A stretch of DNA of 64,000 bases. It comes from Sphingobacteriales bacterium. GTDB taxonomy: Bacteria > Bacteroidota > Bacteroidia > Sphingobacteriales > Sphingobacteriaceae. Every line of letters starts with the position of its first letter. The first letter of the stretch is position 1. The stretch is from the NCBI GenBank assembly GCA_025353765.1, contig JANXOD010000035.1, forward strand, positions 1 through 64,000, given 5' to 3'. This document shows, piece by piece, positions 35,792 through 61,737 of the stretch. The position numbers and the translations under genes are program-made. A model generated the notes under the pieces. It was given only the letters and a program-made list of their open reading frames with translations. It did no database searches and was not told the DNA's origin.

Positions 35792-36265
35792 TTATACCAG
35801 ACTAACCTGCCGCTTAATACTCTCTTCCAGAGAAATAAATGTTTCGGTACGCTGAATGCCCTTTATAGCCTGAATCTCTTCATTTAATACATGCCTTAAA
35901 TGATTGGTATCTCGGCAAATGATTTTAGCAAACATGCTGTATGCACCTGTACAATAATGTAGCTCAACAATTTCTTTAACCTGTTTTAAGTTTTCAACGG
36001 CATCTTTATAATGCGACCCCTTTTCAAGGAAGATTCCCAGAAAGGCGCACACGTCATATCCCAGTTTCTGTGGATTAATGAGTAAATGAGATCCTTGTAT
36101 CACGCCTAAATCCTGCATTTTCTTCATTCGTACATGAATAGTACCACCGGATACGATTAGTTTTTTTGCTATTTCAGTGTAGGGAATAGTGGCATCTTCC
36201 ATAAGGATGCAAAGAATCTGAATATCCAGATTATCAAGTTGGGAATTTTGAGTACTATTTTGCAT
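35792..36265 (-). CDS. Lrp/AsnC family transcriptional regulator
   Basis: A 157-residue regulator. The N-terminal winged helix (about 10-60, LDIQILCILMEDATIPYTEI and IVSGGTIHVRMKKMQDLGVI) binds DNA, and the C-terminal RAM domain (about 70-150) forms octamers and binds amino acids. Length and motif order are standard. Lrp proteins respond to amino-acid supply; the targets here cannot be read from the sequence. It lies on the opposite strand to the tRNA-like gene, upstream regions facing each other. Confidence 0.94.
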   Translation of the reverse strand: MQNSTQNSQLDNLDIQILCILMEDATIPYTEIAKKLIVSGGTIHVRMKKMQDLGVIQGSHLLINPQKLGYDVCAFLGIFLEKGSHYKDAVENLKQVKEIVELHYCTGAYSMFAKIICRDTNHLRHVLNEEIQAIKGIQRTETFISLEESIKRQVSLV

Positions 36266-36341: not shown

Positions 36342-36373
36342 TTTGCAGTGAATATGTAATTCCTTTACATTTG
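36342..36373 (+). promoter_or_regulatory. Distal promoter of the tRNA-like gene, TTTG-N20-TACATTTG
   Basis: TTTG at 36342-36345 and TACATTTG at 36366-36373, 20 bp apart, both perfect. Transcription would begin about 30 bp before the tRNA-like structure. Confidence 0.6.
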
Positions 36374-36399
36374 TATCAAGCAATTAAGAAATATATTTG
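36370..36399 (+). promoter_or_regulatory. Proximal promoter of the tRNA-like gene, TTTG-N18-TATATTTG
   Basis: TTTG at 36370-36373 (shared with the end of the distal -7 box) and TATATTTG at 36392-36399, 18 bp apart, both perfect. The start would fall about 5 bp before the first base of the acceptor stem. Confidence 0.7.
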
Positions 36400-36408
36400 C
36401 TTACACAC

Positions 36409-36527
36409 TGTAGGGTGGTGAAATTTGGCAGACACACCTCCTTGTCTCGGTGGCGAAGGTTCGGGAAATAGGATGCTTAGGCAGAATACATAACTACTTC
36501 GTGAAGGTTCGACTCCTTCCCCTACAG
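36409..36527 (+). tRNA. Unusual 119-nt class II tRNA-like gene (Leu-like body)
   Basis: The acceptor stem is a perfect 7 bp (TGTAGGG 36409-36415 with CCCTACA 36520-36526; base 73 is G). The T-arm is perfect (GAAGG-TTCGACT-CCTTC, 36503-36519). The D-arm is Leu-like: GTG/CAC stem and a 12-nt loop with GG. The anticodon arm fits worse: CCTCC/GGTGG (36437-36441, 36449-36453) has a T-T mismatch, and its loop TTGTCTC would give anticodon GTC with T at position 37. The variable region is 49 nt (36454-36502), about three times normal, and closes with CGAAG/CTTCG. CCA is not encoded. Two consensus promoters and a terminator flank it, so it is expressed as its own unit. Amino-acid identity is undecided. 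Confidence 0.7.
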
Positions 36528-36564
36528 CAAACCTCATTTTTAATGGGTTTATAATTGGTTAGGT

Positions 36565-36604
36565 TAAACAAGTTTCTGCTCATCAGAAACTTGTTTATTT
36601 TTAT
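36565..36604 (+). terminator. Intrinsic terminator of the tRNA-like gene
   Basis: TAAACAAGTTTCTG (36565-36578) and its exact complement (36584-36597) form a perfect 14-bp stem around CTCAT, followed by a T-rich run. It lies 37 bp after the tRNA-like structure. Confidence 0.85.
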
Positions 36605-36796: not shown

Positions 36797-39700
36797 ATGA
36801 AAAAAATTTTACTGAAAACAATTAAAAACAAATGGCTCCTGGCAATATTGCTGGCAGCTCCTTTGTTATCATTTGCACAGCTTACGGGTGTAAAAGGAAT
36901 AGGTAGTCTTCCAAGTGATAGTTATACTTCAGTTGAATTAGCTATTGCGGCTTTAAACACTCAGGGCGTTGGTGGTGGTGGTGTTACATTCAATATATCT
37001 GCTAACTATGCAAATCTGTCAGAAAGTCCTAGTGCTCCACTTGCTATAACTGCAACAGGAACGAATGCTAATCCTATTAAGTTTGTAAATGCTAGTGGAG
37101 GTACATATACTATTATTGCACCTTCAGGGGGTACAGCTACTCCTACTACTACTACAGCTCAAAACGGTATTTGGAATTTACAGGGATCTGATTTTGTAAC
37201 TATTGATGGATTTACCTTGAAAGATAATAATTCAGGTAATGCAAGTATGGAATATGGTTTTGCTTTATATAAAGCAAGCGCAAGTAATGGTGCTCAAAAT
37301 AACCTCATTCAAAATTGTACGATTACTTTAGATAGAAATAATAATACCGCAGGTACAGCTCCGTTTGCAGATGGTTCTGTAGGTATTGCTGTTGTAAATG
37401 CGTTGGTATCAGCCCCTACAACGGCACTTTCCTCTACAACTTCCCCGGGTGGAAATGCGAATAACGGATTTTACAAAAATACCATACAAAATTGTAATGT
37501 AGGTATTGCTTTAATTGGTTGTACTACTAATGTATCACCATATATTGGATCTGATTCTGGAAATGGAATTGGAAATCCTTCAGTATCAACAAGTGGTAAT
37601 ATTATCCAAAACTTTGGGAATGGTGGAGTTTCATCTCCAGCTGCTGGTATTGTTACCTTGGCACAATACAATTCATATATTGTTAATAATACGATCAATA
37701 ATATTGCAGGCAGTGGTATTGCCCACCATAGTGCCTTATACGGCATTCGTAACAATGCAGCTGCTGGTGCTAGTTTTAATATAGTGCAGAATACTATAAG
37801 CTTGACATCCGGCGCAACGTCTAGTCCTTTGACTGCTATTGAAAATTCGGCAGGTAGCGGAGGCGCTTCTAATTTGATTTCTATTTCTAATAATGTGATT
37901 AAAAATTGCTCCTATTTAACTTCAACTACTGGAAGTTTTACTGGTATTAGTAATACAGCTAACCCCGCAACCGTTGATATGGCAGGTAATAACATATTTA
38001 GCAATGCTATTACTTCCACAAGTAGCGGAGACTTTACAGCTGTTAGTAATACGGGCAGCCCTTCAACTCTTAATATTACGAGTACTAATATATACAGCAA
38101 TACGGCTTCATTAAGCACCGGAGACTTTATGGGTATTAGTAATACAGGCAGTTCTACAGTTGCTAATATAAACGGCAATCAGGTTGGTGTAAGTGCTTCT
38201 GGAAATACTGTAACTTCAACTAGCGGAACTTTTACTGGTATTAGTAATAGCGGTAATCCTACATTTTTTACTATTGGAACTGTTGGGGCAAATAATTCAG
38301 TACTTAATAATACACTTTCAGGAACAGGTTTACTTGTAGGTATTAATGCCGGAGATTCACAAACTCTTTCATTAAATAATAATAATATATCAAATAACGC
38401 AAAAACCGGATCAGGGGGTTTTTATTGTATTATTACAGGAGTATCAGCTGTTAACTGTGCAAATAATACACTTACTAATAATACTTTTTCCAATTCTACA
38501 GGTGGTACTACAGCACTACTTGTGGGATTTGTGAATGCTACATCTCCAACATCAGAAACATACGATAGTAATACTATTAGTGGTTTAACTGTTACAGCAA
38601 GTAGTACTGTCACAGGGAATATCTATGGCATATATGCAAATTCAGCTGTTAATACAGCTACAATAAGCAATAATAAAATTAACGGACTTAATTTTACTAC
38701 AACTGGTACTGGCTCGGCAACTGTAAATGCAATATATCGTCAAGGCGCTAGTGCTACCGTTAATATTTCGAAAAATGAAATACGCAATTTAAGCGCTGAT
38801 GGTGCAGTTGGTTTGGCAGAAGGTATTTCTCTTAATAATGGTACAACCTGGAATATAAGTAATAACTTAATTGGTGATTTGAAATCACCTAGTAGTGGTC
38901 AAGGAGTATTCGGGATACTTATATCAGGTAATTCTACAATTAATGCGTATTATAATACAATTCATCTAAATGCAACTAGCACCGGAGCCAATTTCGGGTC
39001 TGCTGATATTTTAGCTCAAAATACAGCAACATTAAATTTAAGAAATAATATTTTTGTAAATAACAGTACAAATAATGGGACTGGTATAACAGTAGCTTTT
39101 CAAAGGACAGGTGGTGTAGATAAAACAAAATATGCTGCTACCTCTAATACTAACTTGTTTTATGCAGGTACCGGATCAGGCCATTTTATTTTTAATGATG
39201 GCACGAACCAATCCAGTAATTTAGCATCATTCAAAAGTGTGTTTACTACGGGCAACGGAGGCCAAAATCAAGATCAGGCTTCAGTTACAGAAAACCCTCC
39301 TTTTCTAGCTACATCTGGTACAACTAATTTTCTTCATATCAATACGAGTACTCCTACCTTAGTTGAAGGTAACGGACTACCTATTTCTGGTTATGCTGAT
39401 GACTATGATGCTGTTGGCTCAAGGAATGGTTCAACGCCGGATATTGGTGCCGATGAAGGAAACTTTACAGCCATTGATAATAACGGCCCTGTTATTTCAT
39501 ATACTGCGCTTAGTGACTCACCTTCTGGAACAAGTGTGACTCTAACAGCAACTATTAGTGATGCTTCGGGTGTGTCAACTACTACAGGTCCCACTGGTGG
39601 TATGCCTGTTTTGTATTATAAAATTAATAATGCAGCTTCTTATACAGCTGTGCAAGGAGCAAATCCAGCAGGCAATACGTTTACCTTTACATTTAACCCG

Positions 39701-41980
39701 GCAACAAGTGGCGTTACAGGCACTGATCAGGTTAAATATTATGTTGTTGCACAAGATTTAGTTGCTACTCCAAACGTATCTGTATACACCAGTGCAGGTC
39801 AGGATATTGTATCAACCGGATTAAATTCAAATCCACCTATCACAAATAATTATGCCGGTACACCGGATGTATATACGAGTACGGGTACTATGTCGGGATT
39901 GTATACAGTTGGTTCTGGAAAATTTTACCCATCATTAACAGCTGCTGTTACTCAATTAAATCAGAGAAAAATAGTGGGTGCGGTAACCTTTGATCTATAT
40001 GCACCAGCCCAAACAGAAACTTATCCAATTGTAATTAATGCAAATGTAGGAAGTAGTGCAACAAATACAGTCACTATTAAGCCTGCAAGTGCTAATGTTT
40101 TAACGTTTACCAGCACTAACACTACTGCTAGTAGTCTTATCCAATTAAATGGTGTTGATTATGTAACTATTAATGGTTCAAATAGTGGAAGTAATTCACA
40201 AGACTTAACTTTTGTAGGTGGAAATTCGAATACATCAGGCATGATTTGGATTTCAAGCAACGCTGGTAATGCGGCAACTAATAACACCGTTAAAAACTGT
40301 GTTATAACGGGAAAATCTAATATTACAAACTATGGTATAGTTAGCAGCGATAATAGCAGTATTAATGCAATACCAGTGGTGGCAAATAATAATACTACGA
40401 TACAAAATAATCTAATTAGCACGTGTTTATATGGAATATATACTAAAGGAAATGCGACTACTAAAAATACAGGAACGAATATTACACTCAATAGCATGGG
40501 TCAAGGTGCACCTGCTAATGTAAGTAATGGTATTGCTGTATTTAATGAAGATGGTGTACAAATAACTAAAAATGTTATTAAAAATATTGTTAACAGTACT
40601 AATAGTTTCGATAATATAGCCATTAATGCAGGATTTCCTTCAGGAATTGTTACTAACTCAACTGCTGTTAGTGGTTTTGAAGTGATCAATGCGGTTATTA
40701 CCGGTAATACTATTGATAATGTTGTTAATAGTAACAGCTATTCTGCCAGTGGCATTGCATATGCAAGTGTTCCATCAGGTACCAGTACCATAGCTAATAA
40801 TATGATAGCTGGTGTTAACAGTAATGGGACTTCCCCTGATTTTGCTTCTGGAATCTTTTTGGGAGGAACTACTGGTGTTACCGGTGCTGCTGTAAAGGTT
40901 TACTATAATTCGGTAGCTATGGTTGGCGCTCATGGAACTGTAACTGCTCCTAATTTTGCTCTTGCTATTAATGGTAGTGACCCTAACGTAGATGTACGGA
41001 ATAATATATTATATAATACAAGTACAGCTACAAATCAATCTGCAATTTTAAGAAGTACTGCTATCGGGTTAGGTTATGCCGCTCCTTTTGCAAACCTGAC
41101 TCTTAATAATAATATTTATTATGTAACTGCAGGTAATACAGGTTTTGCCGTTGGATCTATAAATAGTTTAACATCTGCTGCTGCAGTACCAAGTCAAACT
41201 CTGGCTGCATGGAAAACTAATTCAGGAAAAGATGCTGTATCTGTAAGTTTTCTTCCAGAGTTTTTTCAAGTTACTCCGGGCTTTCAAGCTAATTTACATT
41301 TAAACCCGGCAGTAAAAGATATTAATTATGCAGGAGCTGCGATAGCAGGTGTTGATTTTGATGACCAGGCTCGTCCGGCATCTTCGCCATATATTGGTGC
41401 CGATGAGGTAACTACACTTGCATTACCATTAGATTTAGTTTCCTTTAGCGGTAAAGCATCAGAACATGCTAATCATTTAGCCTGGAGTACTGCAAATGAA
41501 TCTAATACGTCTCATTTCGATGTAGAGCGTATGGTAAACGGTGTTGATTTTGTGAAGATCAATGTAGTTGCTGCCGCAGGAGATAGCAAAAAAGTGTTAG
41601 ACTATAGCTTTACAGATAATAACTTAGTAAGCAGTGTAAACACCTATTACTACCGTCTTAAAATGGTAGACCAAAATGGTGACTTTACCTACTCTAAGAT
41701 TGTGGATGTAAGCGGAGCCTTAAAAAGCACATTTGATGCTTTTGTTTCTCCAAATCCAAGCAATGGTTCTGTAGCAGTTAGTATACTAAACCCAGATAAA
41801 GAAAATGCAAGTGTTGATGTATTTAATTTATCCGGAAAGAAAGTAGCCAATGTACAGATCACTAACCAGGATGCTTTTTACACACAAACATGTGATTGGA
41901 GTAACTTACCAAAAGGAGTTTATGTGGTTAAAGTAAGTACAGCATCGAATGTTAAAACCATGAAAATGATTATTGAATAA
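36797..41980 (+). CDS. Giant type IX secreted protein with two beta-helix modules
   Basis: A 1727-residue surface or secreted protein. A signal peptide (about 1-28, WLLAILLAAPLLSFAQ) is followed by module 1 (about 30-890), a right-handed parallel beta-helix built of short N/S/T/G-rich turns (repeated SGTFTGISN, TNNTISN forms). An Ig-like domain (about 893-1010, GPVISYTALSDSPSGTSVTL) links to module 2 (about 1040-1595), which starts like module 1 (YTVGSGKFYPSLTAAVTQLN) and, like it, ends in an IGADE motif. A type A sorting domain closes the protein (VSPNPSNGSVAVSILNP, then PKGVYVVKVS). Probably an adhesin or carbohydrate-interacting surface protein; no catalytic residues were identified. Confidence 0.88.
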   Translation: MKKILLKTIKNKWLLAILLAAPLLSFAQLTGVKGIGSLPSDSYTSVELAIAALNTQGVGGGGVTFNISANYANLSESPSAPLAITATGTNANPIKFVNASGGTYTIIAPSGGTATPTTTTAQNGIWNLQGSDFVTIDGFTLKDNNSGNASMEYGFALYKASASNGAQNNLIQNCTITLDRNNNTAGTAPFADGSVGIAVVNALVSAPTTALSSTTSPGGNANNGFYKNTIQNCNVGIALIGCTTNVSPYIGSDSGNGIGNPSVSTSGNIIQNFGNGGVSSPAAGIVTLAQYNSYIVNNTINNIAGSGIAHHSALYGIRNNAAAGASFNIVQNTISLTSGATSSPLTAIENSAGSGGASNLISISNNVIKNCSYLTSTTGSFTGISNTANPATVDMAGNNIFSNAITSTSSGDFTAVSNTGSPSTLNITSTNIYSNTASLSTGDFMGISNTGSSTVANINGNQVGVSASGNTVTSTSGTFTGISNSGNPTFFTIGTVGANNSVLNNTLSGTGLLVGINAGDSQTLSLNNNNISNNAKTGSGGFYCIITGVSAVNCANNTLTNNTFSNSTGGTTALLVGFVNATSPTSETYDSNTISGLTVTASSTVTGNIYGIYANSAVNTATISNNKINGLNFTTTGTGSATVNAIYRQGASATVNISKNEIRNLSADGAVGLAEGISLNNGTTWNISNNLIGDLKSPSSGQGVFGILISGNSTINAYYNTIHLNATSTGANFGSADILAQNTATLNLRNNIFVNNSTNNGTGITVAFQRTGGVDKTKYAATSNTNLFYAGTGSGHFIFNDGTNQSSNLASFKSVFTTGNGGQNQDQASVTENPPFLATSGTTNFLHINTSTPTLVEGNGLPISGYADDYDAVGSRNGSTPDIGADEGNFTAIDNNGPVISYTALSDSPSGTSVTLTATISDASGVSTTTGPTGGMPVLYYKINNAASYTAVQGANPAGNTFTFTFNPATSGVTGTDQVKYYVVAQDLVATPNVSVYTSAGQDIVSTGLNSNPPITNNYAGTPDVYTSTGTMSGLYTVGSGKFYPSLTAAVTQLNQRKIVGAVTFDLYAPAQTETYPIVINANVGSSATNTVTIKPASANVLTFTSTNTTASSLIQLNGVDYVTINGSNSGSNSQDLTFVGGNSNTSGMIWISSNAGNAATNNTVKNCVITGKSNITNYGIVSSDNSSINAIPVVANNNTTIQNNLISTCLYGIYTKGNATTKNTGTNITLNSMGQGAPANVSNGIAVFNEDGVQITKNVIKNIVNSTNSFDNIAINAGFPSGIVTNSTAVSGFEVINAVITGNTIDNVVNSNSYSASGIAYASVPSGTSTIANNMIAGVNSNGTSPDFASGIFLGGTTGVTGAAVKVYYNSVAMVGAHGTVTAPNFALAINGSDPNVDVRNNILYNTSTATNQSAILRSTAIGLGYAAPFANLTLNNNIYYVTAGNTGFAVGSINSLTSAAAVPSQTLAAWKTNSGKDAVSVSFLPEFFQVTPGFQANLHLNPAVKDINYAGAAIAGVDFDDQARPASSPYIGADEVTTLALPLDLVSFSGKASEHANHLAWSTANESNTSHFDVERMVNGVDFVKINVVAAAGDSKKVLDYSFTDNNLVSSVNTYYYRLKMVDQNGDFTYSKIVDVSGALKSTFDAFVSPNPSNGSVAVSILNPDKENASVDVFNLSGKKVANVQITNQDAFYTQTCDWSNLPKGVYVVKVSTASNVKTMKMIIE

Positions 41981-61273: not shown

Positions 61274-61737
61274 AATTGCAAAAATGCAAATTTTTCAAGT
61301 AATATTCGATAATGTAAATCTATGAGCATTAGGTCAAAATTTATGTTTTTAATGTATAAAAGTATCTTTATTGCAGCCAAAACTAAGTTTATGAAAGCTA
61401 AAATGATTTATAAATGGATAAATAACTCTTAGGTATAATTAAGTCAAGGAGATCGAATATTTAAGTAATAAACTTGAGCGGGTACATATCTATAAAAATG
61501 TTTTTAGCATCGCTTATAAGACTTAGCATTCAACCAATATTGATATCTGTAAAAGGTTATCTGCCCGAAATTAATTATATATATAATACAAAAAGATCTT
61601 TTTAAGATATATTTCTTTTATTGAAAAAATAAAACATTTTTTTTAAAATAAAATCTTAATTTGTGAATGTATCCATAATTGGTTAGAGGAAGCCGAAAAT
61701 CTATCATAGAGTAGGCAAAAATTGTATACGTAATAAT
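61274..61737. other. Gene-free divergent intergenic region
   Basis: About 464 bp of very AT-rich DNA between the methyltransferase (-) and metalloprotease (+) genes. A 14-bp palindrome AAAAAGATCTTTTT lies at 61590-61603. I see no complete promoter, RNA gene or supported coding frame. Confidence 0.6.

Follow-up and report, generated by a model that had tools for sequence, protein, structure and literature searches.

The question raised by this locus is what purpose is served by an RNA that looks like a tRNA, carries a giant variable arm and lies beside a regulator gene of the AsnC type. It lies within the window, by which we mean the whole stretch of 64,000 nt that was analysed, and an earlier note on this DNA had offered two answers: a tRNA-derived specialised RNA, or a decayed tRNA-Leu whose strong promoter persists. 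The parts of the RNA described there were all recovered by inspection of the sequence (Table 1): the acceptor stem, the T-arm and the D-arm, an anticodon arm with loop TTGTCTC whose stem, CCTCC/GGTGG, holds a single T-T mismatch, G73 and a variable region of 49 nt. Also present, as motifs, are the two promoter-like sites that had been reported, with TAnnTTTG boxes at 36366 and 36392 and TTTG boxes upstream of them at 36342 and 36370, and the perfect 14-bp terminator stem.

Table 1. Features of the locus in window coordinates, with the basis on which each was assigned
Feature	Position	Strand	Basis
Divergent regulator gene of AsnC/Lrp type (157 aa), 143-nt gap to the RNA	35792..36265	-	homology
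Promoter-like site 1: TTTG 36342-36345, TACATTTG 36366-36373	36342..36373	+	motif only
Promoter-like site 2: TTTG 36370-36373, TATATTTG 36392-36399	36370..36399	+	motif only
tRNA-like RNA, 119 nt, base 1 to G73	36409..36527	+	Rfam tRNA 32 bits, family alignment, compensatory changes
Acceptor stem, 5' strand TGTAGGG	36409..36415	+	pairs with CCCTACA 36520-36526, 7 bp
D-arm, Leu-like, 3-bp stem 36418-36420/36433-36435, without nucleotide 20a	36418..36435	+	alignment
Anticodon arm, loop TTGTCTC 36442-36448	36437..36453	+	alignment
Loop positions 34-36, GTC, then T37, C38	36444..36446	+	alignment
Variable region, 49 nt, stem 36454-36458/36497-36501, base 48 at 36502	36454..36502	+	alignment, covariation
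T-arm, perfect	36503..36519	+	family alignment, covariation
Acceptor stem, 3' strand, and G73 (36527), CCA not encoded	36520..36527	+	sequence, alignment
Tail element GGTTTATAATTGGTTAG	36546..36562	+	exact copy in many relatives; also alone elsewhere
Terminator hairpin, perfect 14-bp stem 36565-36578/36584-36597	36565..36597	+	sequence

The RNA was overlooked by ARAGORN, which reported no tRNA in the window, and was missed by the Rfam tRNA search with default filters, both in the whole window and in the genome to which the window belongs (the own genome). When a short stretch was searched with lax filters, the RNA reached 32 bits with RF00005 (tRNA), against a gathering score of 29, and beyond this weak match it resembled nothing in Rfam. 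The cloverleaf and the tertiary core positions of RF00005 are present in it. Its folding energy was about that of shuffled sequences (z 0.05), a value that is uninformative alone, so the case for the RNA rests on comparison. Elsewhere in the window, positions 61683-61717 of the + strand match the DUF805b RNA (RF02914; 45.3 bits, gathering score 35.6).

Alignment across relatives, a check that had been proposed at the outset, brought out a conserved family with compensatory changes in its stems. A DNA search of 60 relatives gave matches in 35, some of them covering the tail or the terminator alone, while a pattern scan of named genomes gave at least 119 stretches, in genera that include Mucilaginibacter, Pedobacter, Daejeonella, Arcticibacter, Hufsiella, Pelobium, Solitalea, Desertivirga and others. 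The near loci, 147 in number and including some genomes twice (from two collections), hold 259 RNA copies or pieces; tandem pairs are common, and up to five copies were seen consecutively. The near alignment consists of 39 nonredundant rows, less than 93% alike, taken from 249 near-full copies scoring above 60 bits, with truncated and decayed copies excluded. The distant set holds 33 distinct copies among 41 matches, which gives 72 distinct copies altogether (39 near and 33 distant).

Of the 975 pair cells in the 39 nonredundant near copies, 93.6% are paired. Changes on both sides are seen at 9 of the 25 pairs, in 45 cells compared with 10.2 in shuffles. Four of five covariation measures beat 500/500 shuffles in these copies. 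The fifth, which concerns further pair types, was unexceptional (16 compared with 14.9, a value reached by 145/500 shuffles). Compensated variation is seen at acceptor pairs 4, 5 and 7 among the near copies. The anticodon stem, which has the T-T mismatch in 37/39 near copies, shows no double change in the 39 and varies with compensation in the distant copies. The core contacts T8-A14, A15-T48, G18-T55 and G19-C56 are present in 39/39 near copies. As judged from the alignment, selection maintains an L-shaped tRNA fold in the tRNA-like RNA, and the description of the RNA as a tRNA-derived specialised RNA is supported by both conservation and covariation. The variable region came out partly as first described: its length of 49 nt stood, but not its 8-bp stem, since the relatives support 4 pairs, with a fifth in 19/39 copies. 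Likewise, GAAGGTTCG does occur twice, but the duplication of part of the T-arm at which this had hinted is not retained in relatives, in most of which the variable arm reads otherwise.

The D-arm is close to that of the own tRNA-Leu(GAG), and by this arm the RNA probably derives from a Leu-type ancestor. It is like class II tRNA-Leu in its D-arm sequence and long variable arm, but unlike it in having G73 instead of A73, a different acceptor stem, no leucine anticodon and an arm that is 2-5 times longer. The Leu-like D-arm is also what speaks for a decayed tRNA-Leu under a strong promoter. That explanation is refuted by the compensatory changes and by the invariant ends across families, 72/72 distinct copies retaining the same acceptor end and core positions, with G73 in each of them where tRNA-Leu has A73, and we give it virtually no credence.

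To describe the spread of the RNA, a family covariance model was applied to 395 genomes of the phylum, obtained by automatic draw. The model splits this set into 39 genomes at or above 73 bits, here called RNA-positive, and the rest at or below 63.7 bits. The RNAs of the 39 genomes are 108-174 nt long and fall in families f1, f15, f25, f27, f29, f30 and f68; the sub-threshold matches that were listed have ordinary class II tRNA length. RNA-positive and RNA-negative genomes likewise separate in an order sample of 300 genomes (best E at most 7.1e-27 and at least 4.1e-14, respectively), where the RNA was absent from the genomes drawn for genera g17, g4, g16 and g18. Three further sets used below, namely the chosen set for GatB, the synthetase set and the genomes with AsnC elsewhere, were picked by hand. 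An origin from phages or plasmids was rejected, there being no match in viral contigs (searched with one exact pattern), plasmids or phages. Beside AsnC in a 1.7-Mb genome lies a shortened and diverged tRNA-like remnant with a T-arm and tail (L296, G024:C3), which may be a reduced form or a case of ongoing decay.

The anticodon had been called unclear; the loop is odd for decoding, as described below, and is better taken as an aspartate-type recognition loop. The available part of PMC9976931 gives bacterial aspartate identity as G73, G10, G34, U35, C36 and C38, and adds a contribution from the tRNA-Asp pairs 1-72 and 2-71, G1-C72 being called crucial. The window copy carries G73, G34, U35, C36 and C38, together with G10, which is found in 37/72 distinct copies. 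G34, U35 and C36 are present in 39/39 near copies and C38 in 38/39; the corresponding counts for the 33 distant copies are U35 33, C36 33, C38 33 and G34 30, and for all 72 distinct copies U35 72, C36 72, C38 71 and G34 69. The three distant copies with T or C at position 34 (L200, L204 and L208) break the aspartate set. The acceptor end is invariant, with U1-A72, G2-C71, U3-A70 and G73 in 72/72 distinct copies and G1-C72 hence absent, and a single base lies between G19 and A21 in 72/72, meaning that there is no 20a. By the account in the same part of PMC9976931, amidation of Asp-tRNA-Asn is conferred by U1-A72 and is blocked in tRNA-Asp by G1-C72 and U20a; under that rule, both features of a GatCAB substrate, U1-A72 and the lack of U20a, occur in 72/72 copies. 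Between G19 and A21, the own tRNA-Asp and the own tRNA-Asn each have two bases, which in tRNA-Asn are both T; the 1-72 pair is G1-C72 in the former and U1-A72 in the latter. Read against these partly available rules (PMC9976931), the sequence of the acceptor end and loop joins aspartate identity with the GatCAB amidation signal.

Compared with tRNA-Asp, the RNA is alike in G73, G34, U35, C36, C38 and G2-C71, and unlike in U1-A72 (instead of G1-C72), the missing 20a, the giant arm and a mostly pyrimidine base 37. Among the near copies (n = 39), 33 have T at position 33, 4 have C and 2 have G; among the distant copies (n = 33), 22 have T, 7 have A, 3 have C and 1 has G there, so that U33 is found in 55/72 overall. 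Base 37 is T in 26, C in 11 and G in 2 of the near copies, with more G37 in the full near set, and T in 32 and C in 1 of the distant ones. The combination of U33 with a purine at 37 is not found in the window copy, which has U33 but T37, and G37 occurs in 2/72. The variable arm of the relatives spans ~40-125 nt. The giant arm and the often atypical bases 33 and 37 suggest that the RNA does not read codons. This argument is weakened by the G37 of some copies and the U33 of most, as not every copy looks incapable of decoding; given the copies with U33 and G37, the giant arm would have to do most of the work of exclusion from the ribosome.

The own genome also bears on decoding. Its fetched stretches hold 31 tRNAs, including tRNA-Asp(GTC) and four tRNA-Leu, so that no decoding task is apparent for the tRNA-like RNA; tRNA-Ile(GAT) and tRNA-Ala(TGC) were not seen in these stretches and were perhaps lost with the rRNA operons in assembly. 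If the RNA were nevertheless an unusual but translating tRNA-Asp, the GUC loop, G73 and U33 of the window copy and the full L-shaped core would be accounted for. We consider this very improbable given the normal tRNA-Asp(GTC) already in the genome and the relatives with C, G or A at 33, mostly a pyrimidine at 37 and arms of ~40-125 nt. Furthermore, U1-A72 would cause the aspartate of such a tRNA to be amidated where GatCAB is present (PMC9976931, available part).

In the distant families, the variable arm contains the motifs GGATAAAC ... GGGTTGACCACTAAA ... GCTAAC in most of 18 aligned rows, which suggests a separate function for the arm, possibly that of a scaffold or one in release. GGGTTGACCACTAAA is conserved between GGATAAAC and GCTAAC in L206, L207, L210, L211, L213-L220, L032, L074 and L116. 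Mimicry of an anti-Shine-Dalgarno sequence by CACCTCCTT in the anticodon arm was also considered, and was set aside because the distant stems differ (CCGTC, CCGCC, CCCGC) with compensation.

Over 149 residues, the window regulator shares 45% identity with E. coli AsnC, and the same protein (2cg4) is its best relative among solved structures. AsnC is the first upstream gene, divergently oriented, in 119/147 near loci (median distance 154 nt), and a cut AsnC gene is present at 2 further near loci. Of the other near loci, 17 have less than 350 nt of upstream sequence and nine have flanking sequence without AsnC (L043, L046, L063, L077, L097, L104, L124, L139 and L157); at least two of these nine are extra loci of AsnC-linked genomes (L063 with L089, and L139 with L143). 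A divergent AsnC gene, encoding a protein of 47-63% identity, adjoins the RNA in 17/22 loci of the distant families. No adjoining AsnC gene was found at L201, L202, L205, L209 and L220, even in larger stretches; the genomes concerned have their best match to AsnC on a different contig. Neither does AsnC adjoin the RNA in five f27 genomes or in G443, G410, G524 and G601. No common gene was recognised by eye at the secondary loci. On the downstream side in the window, the next gene (36797-41980, + strand) codes for a repeat-rich protein of 1727 aa with a signal-like start; it is outside the shared neighbour clusters shown for relatives.

E. coli AsnC is an asparagine-sensing regulator. Its gene is divergent from asnA with 151 nt between the two, close in layout to the 143-nt gap in the window. 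The window locus is like the AsnC-controlled asnA of E. coli in that a divergent gene adjoins an AsnC regulator, but unlike it in that the partner is an RNA gene, not an asparagine synthetase gene, and control by AsnC here is putative.

Taken together, the aspartate-type identity, the GatCAB-type acceptor and the AsnC linkage predicted that the RNA requires GatCAB, and this prediction was then tested via GatB, by which alone the presence of GatCAB was judged. In the chosen set, GatB was found in 28/28 RNA-positive genomes, the own genome being among those with GatB, and in 1/12 RNA-negative genomes. In the phylum draw of 395 genomes, all 39 RNA-positive genomes have GatB. Within the class, the counts are 36/36 RNA-positive and 5/62 RNA-negative genomes, for which Fisher's test gives 9e-22 (a value that ignores kinship); the five are G055, G406 and G424, and, with weaker scores, G484 and G532. 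A GatB match is present in 332/395 phylum genomes overall, and beyond the class it is common to find GatB where the RNA is absent. In the phylum sample, then, the RNA implies GatB, whereas GatB does not imply the RNA.

Asparagine synthetases were sought in 33 chosen genomes with joined pieces of E. coli AsnA, AsnB, AsnRS and GlnRS, at a threshold of E 1e-30. AsnB was found in 0/20 RNA-positive and 10/13 RNA-negative genomes, using a 280-residue piece of the E. coli protein that distant synthetases could escape. AsnA was found in 1/20 RNA-positive (G492) and 3/13 RNA-negative genomes, and either enzyme in 1/20 and 11/13, respectively. At this threshold, therefore, 19/20 RNA-positive genomes, the own genome included, show no asparagine synthetase. 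AsnRS was found in 33/33 genomes, and GlnRS in 18/20 RNA-positive and 11/13 RNA-negative ones; where GlnRS is present, as in those 18 genomes, GatCAB is not needed for Gln-tRNA. The gene set is swapped in two genomes of the window's own genus (G012 and G015), which have no RNA, no GatB and a copy of AsnB. G406, with neither the RNA nor GlnRS, has AsnA and retains GatB.

On this evidence, we consider it likely that the tRNA-like RNA is a tRNA-derived carrier dedicated to the synthesis of asparagine. Rather more tentatively, we lean towards the view that its sole product would be free asparagine, the RNA replacing asparagine synthetase and acting off the ribosome while AsnC matches the supply. 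Alongside the conservation, structure, identity nucleotides, AsnC linkage, GatB co-occurrence and AsnB absence observed above, this scheme has steps that we infer, namely that the RNA is transcribed, charged, amidated and kept out of translation, that asparagine is released from it, and that AsnC controls it. An ordinary discriminating AspRS would charge the RNA with aspartate by way of its aspartate-type identity, and GatCAB would amidate Asp-RNA to Asn-RNA, as U1-A72 and the missing 20a would allow. Deacylation would free the asparagine, which would then be available to the ordinary AsnRS. Entry into the ribosome would be prevented by the variability of base 33, the predominance of pyrimidines at 37, the mismatch in the stem and the giant arm. 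A tRNA with a GUC loop that carried asparagine would misplace it at aspartate codons, which would explain the odd bases 33 and 37, the mismatch and the giant arm. The arm may block decoding, hold AspRS and GatCAB together, or promote the release of asparagine, and AsnC would match production of the RNA to need. Two genomes, G424 and G055, have GatB with neither AsnA nor AsnB and no RNA found, and do not fit the carrier model; G492, with the RNA and AsnA together, also counts against it.

Asparagine could instead be made, as in Bdellovibrio, by GatCAB and a non-discriminating AspRS acting on the ordinary tRNA-Asn, with the tRNA-like RNA as an accessory, either a scaffold for AspRS and GatCAB or a regulator reporting aspartate, asparagine or GatCAB. 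In a survey of 547 genera, 18, some of them Bacteroidetes, had AsnRS, GlnRS and GatCAB and no asparagine synthetase, and asparagine synthesis on tRNA-Asn was inferred for those 18 (PMC4206432, available part). This gene set accompanies a known route, also in Bacteroidetes genera whose tRNA-Asn has U1-A72, and the part of the survey available to us mentions no separate RNA beside it (PMC4206432). The own tRNA-Asn also carries U1-A72, the same GatB co-occurrence and AsnB absence would be expected, and a non-discriminating AspRS could suffice. However, the aspartate-type loop, G73, U1-A72 and missing 20a of the RNA itself would be left unexplained, and the own tRNA-Asn has the U20a that is published as an antideterminant (PMC9976931, available part). 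We judge this route with an accessory RNA unlikely. The dedicated carrier that we prefer is like tRNA-dependent asparagine synthesis in the presence of GatB and AsnRS, the absence of AsnB and mostly of AsnA, and the U1-A72 acceptor, but unlike it in having as its predicted carrier a separate RNA, distinguished by an aspartate-type loop and a giant variable arm. A separate carrier of this kind could be charged by a discriminating AspRS, and its product need not enter translation.

The remaining part of the locus is the tail. At many near loci the RNA gene is followed by GGTTTATAATTGGTTAG and a terminator; the exact 17-mer GGTTTATAATTGGTTAG is found in 127/259 loci, with Pedobacter-type loci carrying a variant. 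A 15-mer core of the tail is present in 118/151 family genomes, compared with ten matches in nine genomes for a reversed control, and up to 19 exact matches to this core were seen in one genome. The distant loci have other sequence at the tail position, often a plain terminator-like hairpin. There are also genomes that lack the tRNA-like part and still have the tail next to AsnC; we treat the tail as a separate small-RNA element joined to the RNA gene. Stand-alone tail units of ~60 nt, consisting of GGTTTATAATTGGTTAG and then a terminator-like hairpin and having a promoter-like motif of their own, were seen at L281, L282, L283, L286, L290 and others, each a putative small RNA; the stand-alone element matches nothing in Rfam. 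At L290, a Flavo-1 RNA (RF01705; 692-769 on the - strand, 48.7 bits against 42) lies upstream of the stand-alone element. At L280 (G014:C41, - strand), a promoter-terminator unit with CTAACCAATTGCAACC, nearly complementary to the tail, adjoins a tail unit and is a possible sponge or antisense partner of it. Within family f29, ATCTGGGTGGGTG occurs twice downstream of the RNA in L204 and L208, and a similar string adjoins AsnC in G406, where the RNA was not found.

If the tail acted by base-pairing, sites complementary to it might be expected before start codons. In the own genome, CTAACCAATT precedes ATG in 5 places, compared with 7 for the reversed control. Counts exceed the control in the tail-rich genomes G022 (25 compared with 5), G020 (16 compared with 6) and G030 (10 compared with 0), but the tail's own reverse strand is counted there, and these excesses give no clean support for targets. 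At L294 and L295 the tail complement precedes a start codon, which is anecdotal. These results bear on the possibility that the whole is a regulatory small RNA on a tRNA scaffold, controlled by AsnC, with the fold serving processing and stability and the RNA or its tail pairing with targets. The AsnC-type neighbour and the conserved tail and terminator, which exist also as a stand-alone unit, are in keeping with such a regulator. Against it, the distant families lack the tail, G012 and the g17 genomes retain tail-type units without the tRNA-like part, clear enrichment of targets is lacking, and the link to GatB and AsnB is not predicted. We regard a regulatory small RNA as decidedly improbable.

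Transfer RNAs that do not serve translation exist, for example the glycine tRNAs for cell-wall synthesis. The tRNA-like RNA resembles these in employing the tRNA fold outside decoding, but differs in that its use here would be for amino acid synthesis, with a recognition loop that is still of aspartate type. Among the literature matches listed by a full-text search, which covers few subscription papers, no description of such an RNA was recognised.

If the carrier role proposed here is true, the RNA would be a tRNA that serves amino acid synthesis instead of decoding, with the recognition signals of two enzymes combinable in one RNA. It would also explain the supply of asparagine in those Bacteroidota in which AsnRS, GlnRS and GatCAB are encoded but an asparagine synthetase is not. 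Such an RNA would be overlooked by tRNA annotation and by metabolic reconstruction. The RNA is found in many soil and water bacteria, where it probably takes no part in decoding and appears to serve asparagine synthesis in place of the usual enzyme.
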